Assembly (NCBI GenBank): GCA_030524745.1
Contig: JAUNGC010000032.1
Span: 1 to 38,154 of the forward strand
Origin: Eubacteriales bacterium
GTDB taxonomy: Bacteria > Bacillota > Clostridia > Lachnospirales > Lachnospiraceae
Reading direction: 5' to 3'
Length of the DNA stretch: 38,154 nucleotides
A model generated the notes under the pieces. The model had not been told where the DNA came from. It worked only from the letters and a program-made list of their open reading frames with translations, and did no database searches. The position numbers and the translations under genes are program-made. Each line of letters starts with the position of its first letter. The first letter of the stretch is position 1. Shown here one piece after another: positions 1,383-38,154 of the stretch.

Positions 1383-3041
1383 GTGATGTGGAAGAAAATA
1401 AAGGAAACAGATAGAAATCACCGGTTCGAGATCGCTTATATATTAATCGCACTATTCGCAGTTTCTCTCCCTTATTTGAGGCAGGATCTGGTGGTTGGTT
1501 CAGATGCGCCCTTTCATCTCGCAAGAATTGAAAGTCTGAAGGAAGGATTGCGGGGAGGCATGTTCCCGGTCAAGGTTCATTCGGTTCTGTGCTATCAATA
1601 CGGTTATGGGGTGGGATTGTTTTATCCGAATTTTTTCCTGTATATTCCGGCCTTTTTCAGAATTATGGGACTTTCCCTGGAAGTGTCGTACAAATTATTT
1701 GCGGGCCTTTTGTTTTTAGGAATGTTTGCGTCTATGTACTACAGCGTTTACAGGGGAATCGGGGACAGAATGCTTGCCTTGGCGGCAGGCGCGCTGTATC
1801 TGTTTTCAACGCCGGTTTTGGATGGCGTTTACCATGGGTTTACGCTGGCGCAGAACCAGGCCCTTGTTTTTATGCCGCTTGCGATAATGGGAATGCTTAT
1901 CTTTGCGGCAAGGGATAAAAAACCATGGATGTTAGCGGCAGGGTTTACCGGATTAATTTATTCACATGTACTTTCTACCGTTATGGCGGTAGCCGTTTGC
2001 TTTATCATTCTGGTTTGTTATATTTTTCGATGGAAGAATTTTAAAAAGAAGTGTATGGAACTGGCAGGCGCTATTTTAGGTGTGTGCGGAATAACATTTG
2101 CCTATTGGGGACCTATGCTGGAGCAGTTCGCGGCTCAAACCTACAGGGTGTCTCAGCCGTGGACCCATGTTTCTGACAATGTGGCGGGAATGTATAATAT
2201 GCTTACGGAAGAAGGCTTCGGCGTTGTTTTAACCGTTGCATGGCTGGTTTGCGTACTGTATGTATTATATGAATGGAAGCGTATAGACAGGGAAGCGAAG
2301 ATTTGTATGGTTTTGGGAACCGGATTAATGCTGCTCCTGACATGTCAGCCATTTTGGAATGTAACGGAAAAGCTTTTCGATTCTCTGCAGTTTACCAGCA
2401 GATTGACGAGGCCCGCTGTTATTTTGGTGATTTTTGCAATCATGTGGTGCCTGAAATATTATGGCGTTTCTTCCAGGCTGAAACCTGTGCTGACGATGTT
2501 TACATTGGGAATATGTGTATATGCCGGATTGTGTCAGGTTTCAGGAGACAGAAAGAACCTGGAAGATTTTGGGGATCGCGTGCTTTACGAGGAGATCGCA
2601 GGCCTGGGGGCAGGGGAAGAATGGCTTCCTGTGGAGACTACGAGAGAAGTAATGGTTACGCCGCTGACCGCTTTTTCGGAAACGGGAGATGCTTTTGCCG
2701 GCAGCCGTGAGGGGAACAATTTCTATTTTGTGGTAAGCGGGGAATCGGATGTTTATCGGATGCCGTTGGTATGGTATAAGGGATATAAAGCAGAAACAGA
2801 AAATGGAATTCAGTTGTCGGTGGAAAAAAATGGAGACGATGGTCTGGTATTAGTTTCCGGCGTACGCAATGCAAAGGAGACTACAAAGATACACGTATGG
2901 TATGACGGAACGGCGGCGCAGAGAATCAGCTATTTGACCAGTTTCCTGACAGCGATCGGAGTGGCTGGAATTGCGATTGGAAAAAAGCTGAACAGGAAAT
3001 CGGGTATTGCGTCCGGCATTAAGCTTTTTAAGAAGGGATGA
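1383..3041 (+). CDS. Polytopic membrane protein, PTPS-related (YfhO/GT-C-like) family, paralogue 1
   Basis: This 552-residue multi-pass protein looks like the bacterial membrane family annotated as 6-pyruvoyl-tetrahydropterin synthase-related, which despite its name is thought to be a GT-C-like sugar-transfer family. A first helix at about residues 17-33 is followed by the motif SDAPFHLARIESLKEG, then YGYGVGLFYPNFFLYIP, many further hydrophobic segments, and a C-terminal extracytoplasmic domain of about 130 residues before a last helix. The acidic HxxR-containing loop after helix 1 is where GT-C enzymes carry catalytic acidic residues. The start is GTG at 1383 or ATG at 1386; GGGAGGAG at 1366-1373 fits both. 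The next gene, 6 bases downstream, encodes a close paralogue. Function as a transferase using a polyprenyl-linked donor is inferred. Confidence 0.8.
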   Translation: MMWKKIKETDRNHRFEIAYILIALFAVSLPYLRQDLVVGSDAPFHLARIESLKEGLRGGMFPVKVHSVLCYQYGYGVGLFYPNFFLYIPAFFRIMGLSLEVSYKLFAGLLFLGMFASMYYSVYRGIGDRMLALAAGALYLFSTPVLDGVYHGFTLAQNQALVFMPLAIMGMLIFAARDKKPWMLAAGFTGLIYSHVLSTVMAVAVCFIILVCYIFRWKNFKKKCMELAGAILGVCGITFAYWGPMLEQFAAQTYRVSQPWTHVSDNVAGMYNMLTEEGFGVVLTVAWLVCVLYVLYEWKRIDREAKICMVLGTGLMLLLTCQPFWNVTEKLFDSLQFTSRLTRPAVILVIFAIMWCLKYYGVSSRLKPVLTMFTLGICVYAGLCQVSGDRKNLEDFGDRVLYEEIAGLGAGEEWLPVETTREVMVTPLTAFSETGDAFAGSREGNNFYFVVSGESDVYRMPLVWYKGYKAETENGIQLSVEKNGDDGLVLVSGVRNAKETTKIHVWYDGTAAQRISYLTSFLTAIGVAGIAIGKKLNRKSGIASGIKLFKKG

Positions 3042-3047
3042 TATGTC

Positions 3048-4670
3048 ATGTGGAAAAAGGTTATGCGGATTGGAAAAAAGTACCGTTTCGACATTTTGTT
3101 TGTAATGATAGCGTTGATTGCGGTATTTTCGCCGTATTTGCGCCAGGATTTGATTATTGGTTCGGATTCGCCTTTTCATCTGGCCAGAATTGACAGCCTG
3201 AAGGAGGGGATTTTGGCCGGTGGTTTTCCAGTCAAGGTCCATAGTGTATTATGCTATCAATATGGCTATGGTGTCGGCCTTTTTTATCCGAATTTTTTCC
3301 TTTATATTCCTGCGTTTTTACGGATCGCCGGAGTATCATTGGAAGTAGCGTATAAACTGTATGCCGGCTTACTGTTTCTGGCTATTTTTTGCTCTATGTA
3401 TTATTGTGTTTATAAGGGGACGCAAGACAGGGTATTAGCATTGCTGGCCGGGGCGCTGTATTTGTTTTCTAATCCTGTTATGATTGGGTTTTATACGGAT
3501 TTTGCGCTGGCGCAGAACCAGGCCATGATTTTCTTGCCGCTGGCGATTATGGGAATGTTTGAGTTCGCATCTGCGGATAAAAGTCCGTGGATGCTTGCAG
3601 TGGGATTTACCGGATTGATTTATTCTCATGTTCTTTCCACCGTGCTGGCGTTCGGAGTCTGCCTGGTGATTTTGGCATGTTGTGTATTACGGTGGAGAAA
3701 CTGGAGAGAAAGGCTGATAAAGCTTTGTATCGCAGTCATTGGAGTCTGTGGTGTGACATTTGCTTATTGGGGGCCTATGCTGGAACAGTTTGCCGCTCAA
3801 ACCTATAGAGTATCACAGCCGTGGACCCATGTTTATGATAATGTACTGAAATTGTATCTTCTTTTTACGAATAGGGGAGTAGGACTTGTCCTGCTGTTTG
3901 TTATGATGGCGACAGCTTTTTATCTGCTTGGAAATTGGGGCGGTCTGGGAAAGGAGATTAAGATCTCGTTTTTGTTAGGGAGTGTGCTGGTATCTTTGAT
4001 GTTTTTCCAGAGATTTTGGAATATAACGGGAAGTCTATTTGATTTTCTTCAGTTTCCTGCACGCTTGAAATGTCCTGCTGTTGTTTTGTTGATTTTTGCT
4101 GCCATGTGGTGCATCAAAAGTGCGGAGTTGTCACAAAATGCGGTATACGTTATTGCGGTGGTTATGCTGGGGATTTGTATTTATACAGGCCTGGACAGCG
4201 TCAGTGATAAAATGGAAAATACGGAAGATTTTGGAAACCGTGTAATTTATGAGGAAATTGCAGGACTTGGTTCGGGAGAAGAATGGCTACCGGTGGAGAC
4301 AACCAGAGAGGTATTGGTTACACCGCTGGTGGCATTTTCGGAAGAGGGGGAAGTTTTTAACGGAAAACGGGATGGAAATGATTATTATTTTACAGTGAAC
4401 GGTGAAGGCAATACTTATAAAATGCCGCTGATTTGGTATAAAGGATACCGCGCTGAAACAGAAGAGGGAAATCCATTGACTGTGATGAAAAATGCAGGAG
4501 ATGGATTGATTCTGGTTTCGGGCGTAACTTCAGCGGAAGGTGATGTGAACATACATGTATGGTATGACGGGACTGCCTTGCAAAAGGTTAGCTATATTGT
4601 TTCCCTGATATCTGCAATAATCGTTGGTATTTGGATGGTATGGAAACGGAAGGGACGGACAGGAATATGA
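3048..4670 (+). CDS. Polytopic membrane protein, PTPS-related (YfhO/GT-C-like) family, paralogue 2
   Basis: This 540-residue protein is clearly homologous along its whole length to the gene just upstream. It shares SDSPFHLARIDSLKEG, YGYGVGLFYPNFFLYIPAF, a TFAYWGPMLEQFAAQTYR block and the C-terminal HVWYDGTA block before the final helix. The two genes are tandem, 6 bases apart, so this is a local duplication. The conserved parts are the loop after helix 1 and the C-terminal extracytoplasmic domain; most divergence lies in the central helices (residues about 270-390), which may carry acceptor or donor specificity. ATG at 3048 follows AGAAGGGATG. The stop overlaps the next gene's start as ATGA, so translation is probably coupled. 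A GT-C-like sugar-transfer role is inferred from family and neighbours. Confidence 0.8.
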   Translation: MWKKVMRIGKKYRFDILFVMIALIAVFSPYLRQDLIIGSDSPFHLARIDSLKEGILAGGFPVKVHSVLCYQYGYGVGLFYPNFFLYIPAFLRIAGVSLEVAYKLYAGLLFLAIFCSMYYCVYKGTQDRVLALLAGALYLFSNPVMIGFYTDFALAQNQAMIFLPLAIMGMFEFASADKSPWMLAVGFTGLIYSHVLSTVLAFGVCLVILACCVLRWRNWRERLIKLCIAVIGVCGVTFAYWGPMLEQFAAQTYRVSQPWTHVYDNVLKLYLLFTNRGVGLVLLFVMMATAFYLLGNWGGLGKEIKISFLLGSVLVSLMFFQRFWNITGSLFDFLQFPARLKCPAVVLLIFAAMWCIKSAELSQNAVYVIAVVMLGICIYTGLDSVSDKMENTEDFGNRVIYEEIAGLGSGEEWLPVETTREVLVTPLVAFSEEGEVFNGKRDGNDYYFTVNGEGNTYKMPLIWYKGYRAETEEGNPLTVMKNAGDGLILVSGVTSAEGDVNIHVWYDGTALQKVSYIVSLISAIIVGIWMVWKRKGRTGI

Positions 4671-20337: not shown

Positions 20338-20710
20338 GCGGCGGCACTCCTGCCTTGCGGCCCCTCCCTTCGGCCTGCGGCTTCCGGCGGCTCTGCTTCT
20401 GCCCTGCGCAGGCATTTTTGCCATTCCGATATCCAAAACGGGAAATTCCAGCCGAAGCGCCGGGCTGTTCCAAACTGTTATCCAATGCGCAAACTCGCAT
20501 CAAATAAACGACCTCGCAGTTCGCTGCGAGGTCATTCATTTGACGCTCAGACAATACGCATTGTCTAACAGAAACAGCCCGGCGTTTCGGGGAATTTCCA
20601 CGTCTTGGATATGAGTCATGGCTGCAAATGCCTGCGCAGGGCAGAAGCAGAACCGCCGAAAGCCGCAGGCCGAAGAGAAGGGCCGCAAGGCAGAAGCGCC
20701 ACCGCCCGGA
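20335..20710. repeat. Long imperfect palindrome, copy A of a two-copy element
   Basis: About 375 bases read almost the same on both strands. The left arm starts just after the stop of the membrane gene and the right arm ends near 20710, with its centre near 20521. The arms include a 25-base near-perfect stretch (20393-20417 against its mirror near 20627-20651). The inner part (about 20410-20640) is also found in the element at 37578-37978, in the same orientation, whereas the outer arms are not. It occupies the gap between two convergent genes, so it could block read-through from both sides. Several apparent open frames inside it are translations of the repeat and are not genes. I recognise no named repeat family. 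Confidence 0.9.
20510..20533. repeat. Perfect apical hairpin with TTCG loop at the centre of copy A
   Basis: GACCTCGCAG (20510-20519) and CTGCGAGGTC (20524-20533) form a perfect 10-bp stem around TTCG, a loop of the stable UUCG type (here closed by G-C). It is the exact centre of the palindrome. Copy B has a different centre, GCAAAGCTTTGC. Confidence 0.9.
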
Positions 20711-36427: not shown

Positions 36428-36450
36428 CGGATCAAGAAAGATTTGCAAAC

Positions 36451-36511
36451 AAACTGCGTCATAGCTTTGTATCAGGTAATGGACGGATAGCAGGCTATGA
36501 CGCAGTTTTTT
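36451..36511 (+). terminator. Strong rho-independent terminator between convergent genes
   Basis: AAACTGCGTCATAGC (36451-36465) and GCTATGACGCAGTTT (36494-36508) form a perfect 15-bp stem followed by T residues to 36511. The A-rich flank makes it partly usable from the minus strand for the nuclease gene as well. Confidence 0.9.
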
Positions 36512-37415
36512 ATGATTGATAGTTTGATTTTTCTTCCTGTAGCTTAAATTCCTGCAACAGTTTATCAAGCATAGCCTTGTCGGAAAGGGCGGAAAGCAGT
36601 TCGTTTTGCCTGCCGAGCGCAGTAAGCTTTTCGTTCAGGGCAGTGATAAGCTGTATCCCTTGTTCCTTCCCATAATTGATTGCGCTGATTCTGTCGCGTT
36701 CATATTTTTCCCAACGCCGGCATTGCTGGCGGATCTTCTCGTCTTCCGAAAGTTCGGCAAGAGTCACAACCGTTTCCTGAAGCACCTTGTCGTTCTGCGT
36801 CAATGCTTTCATCTCCTCCCAGGTCGTAGCCTTAAAAATCTTAGCCCATTTATAGAGACCGCTGACGCGGTCATCCTCCGAGGCGTTTTCAAGTTGAGAT
36901 AAGCATAACACATTGAGAGCGATTTTGTCACTGTAAATTCGGTGTGTTTTCCGGTTCATAAGTGCGTATTGCTGATAAAATTCCTTATTCCCGTCGGGAA
37001 AGTTAAAGTCTAGAATGCCGATCTGAAAAATCCGCTTTAATGAACGGTAATCTTTTCCGGACTCAAGATCGCACAGCTTCTGCGCAAGATAGTAGATGCT
37101 GCGGTCATCCCAGTTCCCTTCGTTTCTCACCTGCATTTCCAGATTGATATAGGTATTGTCGTTTAAAAGTATGAGCAGATCGAGAACACAGTCCTTTTTA
37201 TCCAGGGCCTGCCCCAGAACGATGAGATTGAGAATTTCAACGGAAATAATTTCTTCCCGCCGGATATGCAGCAGTACGGCGATCAGTTGGCAAAGCGCTT
37301 CATGATTTTTTTGCAGTACGGCGACAAACAGGTAAGCATTCGTAAAAGGAAAACGCAGCGGACCAGACAGCTTTTGCAGAATAGAATTTGGGGACATAGA
37401 TGTGATTTGAGACAT
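36510..37415 (-). CDS. Rpn-like PD-(D/E)XK family nuclease / putative transposase-related protein
   Basis: This 301-residue protein starts at ATG 37415 with AAAGGAGG 8 bases before it. It matches the Rpn / PD-(D/E)XK nuclease family often annotated as transposase: an N-terminal FTNAYLFVAVLQKNHEAL block, then KKDCVLDLLILLND (candidate Asp79) and YINLEMQV (Glu93-x-Gln95), the nuclease core, followed by RSIYYLAQKLCDLESG and a long charged helical C-terminal part ending in a leucine-rich stretch. Known Rpn proteins promote RecA-independent recombination and cleave DNA. The tail (about 245-300) differs most among relatives. It sits beside a long palindromic element, so a role in that element's movement is tempting but unsupported. 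Confidence 0.88.
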   Translation of the reverse strand: MSQITSMSPNSILQKLSGPLRFPFTNAYLFVAVLQKNHEALCQLIAVLLHIRREEIISVEILNLIVLGQALDKKDCVLDLLILLNDNTYINLEMQVRNEGNWDDRSIYYLAQKLCDLESGKDYRSLKRIFQIGILDFNFPDGNKEFYQQYALMNRKTHRIYSDKIALNVLCLSQLENASEDDRVSGLYKWAKIFKATTWEEMKALTQNDKVLQETVVTLAELSEDEKIRQQCRRWEKYERDRISAINYGKEQGIQLITALNEKLTALGRQNELLSALSDKAMLDKLLQEFKLQEEKSNYQS

Positions 37416-37499
37416 GTCAGTACCTCCTTTGTAGATGTGGTGTGATTGATGAGAAATGGATTTTTTGAAGAACTCATAAGGAATAATAAAGTGAAAAGA

Positions 37500-37515
37500 T
37501 GCCGGAATTCCGGCA
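37500..37515. repeat. 16-bp perfect palindrome
   Basis: TGCCGGAATTCCGGCA is its own reverse complement. It lies 85 bases upstream of the nuclease start on the minus strand, and could be a protein-binding site or a chance palindrome. Confidence 0.6.
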
Positions 37516-37577
37516 GGACTTCAGAAAAAGTAACATTACCATAGCACAATTTGGACAGAACGGCAACATTCTTTTTC

Positions 37578-37978
37578 GTCAGGATAAGCACATCAATCTG
37601 CCGCCGGACATCGTGTCGTGTGCCTGTCGGTTCTGACCGGGGCCTGCTGCCCTATCCTGCCCGGCGTTTGGGGGCGCACAGGTATTTTTGCCATTCCGAT
37701 ATTCAAACCGGGAAATTCCAGCCAAAGCGTCATCCCGTTCCAAACTGCGATTCAATGCGTAAACTCGCGTCAAAGCAAAGCTTTGCCGCTCAGACAGTAC
37801 GCATTGAATCACAGGAACGTCCTGACGTTTTGGGGAATTTCACCGTTTTGAATATAAGTCATGGCTGCAAATATCTGTGCGCCCTCCAAACGCCGGGCAG
37901 AATAGGGCAGCAGGCCCCGGTCAGAACCAACAGGCACACGATGCAATGACGACGACAGATCGATGCGTTTATCCTGAC
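37578..37978. mobile_element. MITE-like long palindrome, copy B, with inverted ends and flanking direct repeat
   Basis: The element is about 401 bases and reads almost identically on both strands. It begins GTCAGGATAA (37578-37587) and ends TTATCCTGAC (37969-37978). The same hexamer TTTTTC flanks both ends (37572-37577 and 37979-37984), as expected for a target-site duplication, though the sequence is simple. The centre is GCAAAGCTTTGC (37775-37786). The inner ~200 bases match copy A at about 20410-20640, in the same orientation. Reading frames inside are repeat translations, not genes. No transposase is encoded, so if mobile it would need one in trans. I recognise no named family. Confidence 0.82.
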
Positions 37979-37994
37979 TTTTTCACACACAACA

Positions 37995-38026: not shown

Positions 38027-38058
38027 GCATGACAGCGAACGGGAGTGAGCTGTCATGC
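38027..38058 (+). repeat. Perfect 10-bp inverted repeat at the predicted transcript start
   Basis: GCATGACAGC (38027-38036) is the exact reverse complement of GCTGTCATGC (38049-38058), with a 12-base loop GAACGGGAGTGA. The loop holds a GGGAG ribosome-site-like string and the right arm holds an ATG (38055), so the hairpin could hide a start. Confidence 0.75.
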
Positions 38059-38154
38059 GCAACTTCGCAAAAAGCGAAGCGTTTGCGAAGGGACCCGATC
38101 AGCGAACGGGAGTGAGCTGTCATGCGCAACTTCGCAAAAAGCGAAGCGTTTGCG
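38033..38154 (+). repeat. 67-bp tandem repeat running off the window
   Basis: The unit CAGCGAACGGGAGTGAGCTG... starts at 38033 and again at 38100, giving a period of 67 bases. The second copy is cut by the window end after 55 bases and matches the first exactly as far as visible. Each unit holds CTTCGC-AAAAA-GCGAAG, a 6-bp stem with A5 loop. The period is not a multiple of three, so it is not a repeated peptide. Copy number is unknown. Confidence 0.9.

Follow-up and report, generated by a model that had tools for sequence, protein, structure and literature searches.

At positions 37578 to 37978 of the window, which is the whole stretch of 38,154 nucleotides that was analysed, 401 bases fold back on themselves from end to end. 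This raised the question of what the palindrome is, how it came to stand there and what keeps its two arms alike. The initial annotation had taken it for a non-autonomous, MITE-like mobile element that is palindromic throughout, with exact inverted ends and a flanking hexamer as a candidate target-site duplication.

The palindrome and a second copy in the window

The fold over the whole length was borne out. For the palindrome, called copy B here (locus L001), the RNA fold gave −280 kcal/mol, compared with a shuffle mean of −124 kcal/mol (sd 5.5), and none of 100 shuffles was equally good. The opposite strand gave the same z-score with DNA parameters. The inner arms (37609-37674 and 37883-37948) were 91% complementary, and the 10-base inverted ends and the TTTTTC on both sides were found as described (Table 1). 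Among ORFs of at least 80 aa, one of 132 aa with a TTG start ran across copy B (37551-37949) and one on the minus strand overlapped its left edge (37283-37591); both were taken as by-products. With small changes allowed, the terminus CAGGATAA was present at six ends of four loci in the source genome (G000). L001 and L002 carry it at both ends, and it recurs in the remnants L036 and L037; beyond it the four are no longer similar. Since the terminus is common to the subfamily and similarity stops there, the boundary of copy B was considered real.

Table 1. Positions of the features of copies A and B in the window
Feature	Position	Strand	Remark
Copy A, the other palindrome of the window, flanked by two convergent genes	20338..20705	none	same design as copy B
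Core of copy A	20401..20641	+	model R1, 197.5 bits
Apical motif in copy A: AAACTCGC and GCTCAGACA around a long tip stem-loop	20491..20553	+	
Left TTTTTC, candidate duplication, unsupported	37572..37577	+	
Copy B, full-length palindromic element, 401 bp	37578..37978	none	fold z −28; inverted arms
Left terminus of copy B, GTCAGGATAA	37578..37587	+	read directly; part CAGGATAA common to L002, L036 and L037 with small changes
Conserved core in copy B, common to the G000 copies	37671..37884	+	model R1, 235.8 bits, copy B itself being among the sequences that built the model
Apical motif of copy B: AAACTCGC-(tip stem-loop)-GCTCAGACAG	37761..37797	+	recurs across phyla
Right terminus of copy B, TTATCCTGAC	37969..37978	+	read directly
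Right TTTTTC	37979..37984	+	may be a T-run belonging to a terminator-like base

Rfam gave no match above the gathering threshold in the window, and three sub-threshold matches at copy B were of unrelated kinds. No record similar to copy B was found in INPHARED or PLSDB. A gene for a PD-(D/E)XK nuclease family transposase-like protein (PF12784, 131 bits; 36510-37415, minus strand) adjoins copy B, and no homologue of it was found among the ORFs at other copies.

The gap between the convergent neighbours of copy A measures 440 bp. The stop codons of the same flanking genes overlapped or abutted in three congeners (G010, G009 and G006), and the overlap was larger in G008. Other congeners had short spacers, with about 250 bp and three small hairpins in G005 and 2 kb in G001; no match to the site was found in G012. 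A long palindrome already present at the insertion site was considered and set aside, as none was seen at the copy A site, though G003 had a small one. Most simply, copy A is a gain where the congeners have none. The nucleotide identity between the locus and its congeners was only about 66-75%, so the exact junctions were not visible and the gain is suggested by the comparison. An empty site, which the initial annotation expected of a mobile element, was looked for at copy A and found there.

Three other repeats were observed in the window. At 38033-38154 an exact 55-base block occurs twice, 67 bases apart. It contains an inverted repeat of its own, GCATGACAGC/GCTGTCATGC, and the contig ends inside it; a 28-base word of the block was found at just those examined loci that cover this place. 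The adjacent ORFs of 552 and 540 aa at 1383-4670 look like diverged tandem duplicates with a repeat spacing of 1662. A 26-base inverted repeat with a terminal T-run between convergent genes (36448-36511) has the look of an ordinary terminator.

Copies across genomes and the apical motif

The assembly of the window was searched, and 44 matches were obtained, many of them one site on both strands. A covariance model of the core (R1) located at least 30 loci in G000, with 150 of 1125 candidates scored; 29 reached 173 bits or more and one reached 118. The alignment and the model contained 28 of the 30. Besides C45:104985 and C21:202476, two half copies (the 3' half L029 and one on C44) and the arm-only remnants L036 and L037 were not included. 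The aligned copies had in common a core of about 214 nt with one internal orientation and conserved unpaired stretches, and 57 of its 83 consensus pairs were changed on both sides with pairing kept in at least one sequence. Beyond the core, the arms were complementary (80-100%) in 27 of the 28 copies; none were found for L013. These outer arms were copy-specific. Above 45 bits, likeness along the whole arm was found only between L001 and L002 (76-79%), and shorter or weaker likeness among L001, L002, L006 and L007. In the 28 copies, A made up 7.4% of the outer 5' arms and 27% of the 5' flanks. CTGCC was found 44 times in the outer arms, where 8.5 occurrences were expected.

Such arms could be false inverted duplications from assembly or amplification, and some matches do lie at contig ends of draft genomes. 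However, the single-contig genomes G310, G219 and G074 carry elements, the outer arms in G000 differ from each other by about 10%, and 41 copies in the Deltaproteobacterium G367 have their own flanks. We regard an artefact as having almost no probability.

The conserved part beyond G000 was an asymmetric loop close to the hairpin apex, with the sequence AAACTCGC-(tip)-GCTCARACA. R1 matched in 6 of 13 genomes of the genus (G000 included), in long hairpins with very different stems. The exact loop AAACTCRC-(tip)-GCTCARACAG was present at 17 of 24 congener loci, two of the 24 being one site on both strands; it was absent from L053, L059, L061, L066, L071/L076 and L077, some of which had near variants. 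With one genome per genus, 28 of 299 genomes of the family carried the AAACTCGC pattern in 1 to 36 copies each, and the reversed-pattern control gave one match altogether. The motif was rare in the viral contigs of IMG/VR (58 stretches).

At least 119 stretches with the motif were found in GTDB contigs (80 among the matches listed). The 50 genomes behind these matches were picked for having the motif; the motif was repeated in 39 of them and occurred at least ten times in 18, and the controls gave 0 except in G361. This genome was discounted because its 11 matches compared with 8 in the control, so that 17 genomes with at least ten copies (up to 148) were counted, from Bacteroidota, Bacillota, Deltaproteobacteria and others. 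Copy numbers were 148 and 109 in two Deltaproteobacteria MAGs, 45 in Flammeovirga, 40 and 31 in Lachnospiraceae MAGs, 38 in Peptococcaceae, 35 in a Bacillota MAG, 26 in Cellulophaga, 24 in Rufibacter and 12 in a Thermodesulfovibrionales MAG. A single match was found in 11 of the 50, and five of these (L124, L125, L136, L137 and L159), which show no hairpin, are likely chance matches.

Among 74 motif sites whose flanks were long enough, 41 had palindromic arms with a score of at least 20, as did 7 of 1817 random sites. Because the other 33 sites scored below 20 and included multi-copy Bacteroidota (L122, L154, L170, L173 and L190), long matched arms are not universal. The case for relatedness across phyla is mainly the tip motif plus the hairpin form.

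A common neighbour gene was rejected on the widest clusters among the 813 ORFs beside the elements. These clusters, with members at 18 and 10 loci, were ABC transporters and histidine kinases, of which five members were checked by Pfam, and they were taken as background. Some single loci had features of their own. In the phage-like contig of L274 (7362-8879), a pair of small ORFs lies between two apical motifs of opposite orientation. A T-rich small hairpin was seen by eye 5' of the tip hairpin in L148, L154, L189 and L274, and its loop CTTGAT (CCGCC in L274) is complementary to the word just downstream, ATCAAG (GGCGG), which could form a pseudoknot. L366 in G043, a genome with SbcD, consists of two neighbouring near-perfect hairpins with arms well over 100 bp (−317 and −332 kcal/mol).

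Ends, mobility and turnover of the arms

The clearest terminal structure was that of G367. It had 161 pattern matches, and both ends were found in 41 of the 56 examined. The element was about 225 bp long (range 219-257 bp), started with GTAACTGTTCAGCG and ended with CGCTGAATAGATAC (up to three substitutions allowed). It was flanked by an 8-bp direct repeat, perfect in 24 of the 41 and matching at seven or more of the eight positions in 36, with a sequence that varied by site. In G364, a second Deltaproteobacterium, L363 (two copies) and L139 had the same ends and the duplication by eye, and L139 was also confirmed by script. These terminal repeats and 8-bp duplications indicated that the members in G367 were inserted by a transposase in trans. 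No record similar to the G367 element was found in INPHARED or PLSDB. The initial annotation's idea of a dispersed, non-coding, palindromic repeat of MITE-like kind gained support from these relatives with real terminal repeats and target duplications.

Judged by its ends, the mover of the G367 members is most likely, and probably, an enzyme of the IS66/ISBst12 type. For ISDge4 (IS66 family, ISBst12 group) the ends are GTGACTACTCAGCA / GTAACTGCTCAGCA, with an 8-bp repeat (PMC12898284), and table rows for two Paracoccus IS66 elements can be read as 8-bp repeats (PMC3281130). The pair GTAACTGTTCAGCG / GTATCTATTCAGCG of G367 and G364 resembles the ISDge4 pair GTAACTGCTCAGCA / GTGACTACTCAGCA, and the repeat has the same length (PMC12898284). 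Such ends were seen in G364 and G367 alone, and no transposase gene bearing them was encountered. In contrast to MITEs of this group, the hairpin family is palindromic throughout with a conserved apical loop, and the G000 copies are without such ends or an 8-bp repeat. Copy B itself was rejected as an IS66/ISBst12-derived MITE. Its ends GTCAGGATAA with the 6-base TTTTTC are not the GTAAC-type ends with an 8-bp duplication.

The TTTTTC was not upheld as a target-site duplication. The direct match flanking the fold ends had a mean of 3.76 over 25 G000 copies, compared with 3.49 (sd 0.20) in permutations, which was taken as no excess, and the flanks of the other copies of the subfamily were unrepeated by eye. 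This permutation test is insensitive, since the known duplications of G367 also went unrecovered. When exact 8-bp repeats with matched ends were sought at 26 G000 loci, one candidate was obtained besides self-complementary words, ATTTCATG at L031, which could be chance. No target duplication was supported in G000 or G310, where the centre was conserved and not the ends. The expected common boundary held in part. Shared terminal inverted repeats were seen in the copy B subfamily, with CAGGATAA at its six ends, and not in the other G000 copies, most of which share no boundary. A different arrangement was observed in G389. There, paired hairpins lie in a conserved unit of about 720-890 bp with its own matched ends, TYGTATGTGCACC, and no clear duplication was seen at this unit. 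The hairpins of L352-L359 were about 340 bp apart (510 in L359) and in + then − orientation in the eight pairs examined.

The family could also be taken for REP/BIME-type repeats moved by a RAYT (Y1 transposase), as it is dispersed, intergenic, palindromic and genome-specific, although nothing in this points to RAYT in particular. However, no Y1_Tnp was found in G310 (26 copies), G126, G088, G158, G239, G284 or G315, and many motif-free genomes had several Y1_Tnp matches (66 genomes, one family). The elements are 200-540 nt long, compared with 20-40, and their tag is at the tip and not at a GTAG/CGTC end as in REPs (PMC3733652). A link to RAYT/IS200 was therefore rejected by the Y1_Tnp distribution for these 66 genomes of one bacterial family, and this origin was judged very improbable.

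Arm turnover was compared at orthologous copies. Between L247 and L249, one copy in two species of the genus of G310, the flanks were 88-91%, the tip 98% and the arms 76-78% alike. Among 67 pairs, 42 were unchanged, 10 changed on both sides, 1 changed on one side and 14 were broken. The L245/L246 pair showed nearly no change. At the L246 locus the element points the same way in G334 and G335, and in G328 a core 83% alike points the other way between the same flanking genes, which are 90-93% alike. L246 was the one locus at which such an inversion was seen. The matching of the arms and the reversed core would both follow from template switching or recombination inside the palindrome; the reversal may also be an independent insertion in the other direction.

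Insertion into, or growth from, intrinsic terminators was considered at the same locus. According to this explanation the outer arms are host terminator stems, and the element continues to terminate through its fold. By eye, the site in four element-less relatives (G310, G338, G340 and G341) contained a GC-rich hairpin followed by a T-run or a T-rich tail, the element-bearing species had a GC-rich outer stem with TTTT, and TTTTTC directly follows the base of copy B. Judging by these four relatives, some insertions do sit in terminators. However, TTTT after or AAAA before the fold base was found in 6 of 25 G000 copies and in 8 of 22 copies of G310, which is AT-rich. Three congeners had no spacer at all between the genes at the copy A site, and 9 of 24 G000 copies lay between divergent ORFs by rough calls. 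As a general account, terminators are improbable, more so than the RNA family considered below.

The arm mismatches of 116 copies in four groups comprised 200 G.T and 300 A.C. The A.C excess had p 1.7e-5 in G000, where the outer arms alone gave 87 A.C and 55 G.T (p 0.009), and p 0.003 in the contig set; G310 was even (68 and 65). This pattern is unlike the expectation for a purely RNA-level constraint, yet it is not symmetric, and the A.C excess would be compatible with an RNA made from the opposite strand. A multi-copy family of structured non-coding RNA (3'-UTR or small RNA), with the stem selected as RNA and the loops as its working parts, would fit the strong covariation of the core and the conserved loop nucleotides. 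The bias amounts to wobble pairs in the strand 5'-CTGTYTGAGC...GCGAGTTT-3', which could also form tandem G.A pairs at its tip. However, the bias was absent from G310, where orientation to the neighbouring genes was mixed (11 −−, 7 ++, 5 +− and 3 −+; rough counts, owing to ORF calls in GC-rich palindromes), the element was inverted at one orthologous site, no element matched Rfam at the gathering threshold, and G367 has true transposon ends. A single-strand RNA signature was set aside as weak, and we consider an RNA family unlikely. Rfam was also run on 12 further loci, with no element matched at the gathering threshold and just a T-box beside the L247 element. No replication-strand bias was seen by hand count among 26 G310 copies (+/− 6/7 and 7/6 in the two contig halves, the contig start taken as origin).

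Where SbcCD is present, a genome is expected to lose its long palindromes. Tens of elements are nevertheless kept in genomes with an SbcD match (at least 30 in G000, 36 in G043, 26 in G310 and 40 in G389), so that SbcCD loss was rejected as the reason for palindrome survival; it is not required. SbcD exceeded the cut-off in 20 of the 35 genomes with the motif and in 26 of the 30 without it, two groups which differ in phylum. The 15 motif-bearing genomes with no SbcD match, several of them drafts, included the two richest in copies (G364 and G367). An association of the motif with SbcD absence may exist.

A proposed mechanism and comparison with known systems

Taken together, we consider it probable that copy B represents a single insertion of a palindrome that is mobile but non-autonomous, from a family defined by the apical loop AAACTCGC / GCTCARACA. 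A transposase would insert the element in trans, as in G367, where the ends make the IS66/ISBst12 type most likely. After insertion the arms would not decay independently. Template switching or recombination between them may copy one arm onto the other, which would keep the hairpin while its sequence turns over and would occasionally invert the centre. We read the arms as being kept matched by correction within the palindrome or by selection. The constancy of the tip may reflect its recognition as a folded strand, more likely as single-stranded DNA or a cruciform than as RNA.

A further suggestion is more tentative and, on balance, doubtful. The apical loop may be the recognition site of a new hairpin-reading enzyme or pathway that spans phyla, with the giant hairpins as its working parts and not relics of transposons. 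The arms would be continually replaced and matched anew around an unchanging tip. This tip module would be carried by different mobile backbones, which would be IS66-like in Deltaproteobacteria and of other kinds in Lachnospiraceae and Bacteroidota.

The family of giant hairpin elements is well marked, MITE-like in kind and apparently undescribed. In a search of the open-licence literature for the motif letters and for such palindromic repeats, none of the titles listed concerned such a repeat beyond REP, ERIC, MITEs and similar repeats. Two features are unusual: the tip is conserved across phyla, and the arms stay matched as they change. A conserved tip on a free stem points to a recognised structure. 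The family offers many natural cases for measuring how a palindrome is kept and rewritten, and its very specific 18-base handle (AAACTCGC...GCTCARACAG) can be used for finding the enzyme involved.

REP, BIME and REPIN sequences with RAYT are likewise dispersed, intergenic and palindromic and form genome-specific sets. However, the hairpin family is about ten times longer, has its tag at the tip instead of one end and does not co-occur with Y1 transposases. We know of no such apical motif in ERIC. ERIC, a single long stem-loop according to PMC2267715, resembles the present family in being one long intergenic hairpin. Unlike ERIC, the family has copy-specific arms and a range that spans phyla. 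The copies of an ordinary MITE share their ends, whereas most G000 copies are the opposite and share their centre. In the foldback elements of eukaryotes, inverted arms make up most of the element. They dominate in the same way in the hairpin family, and the hosts differ.
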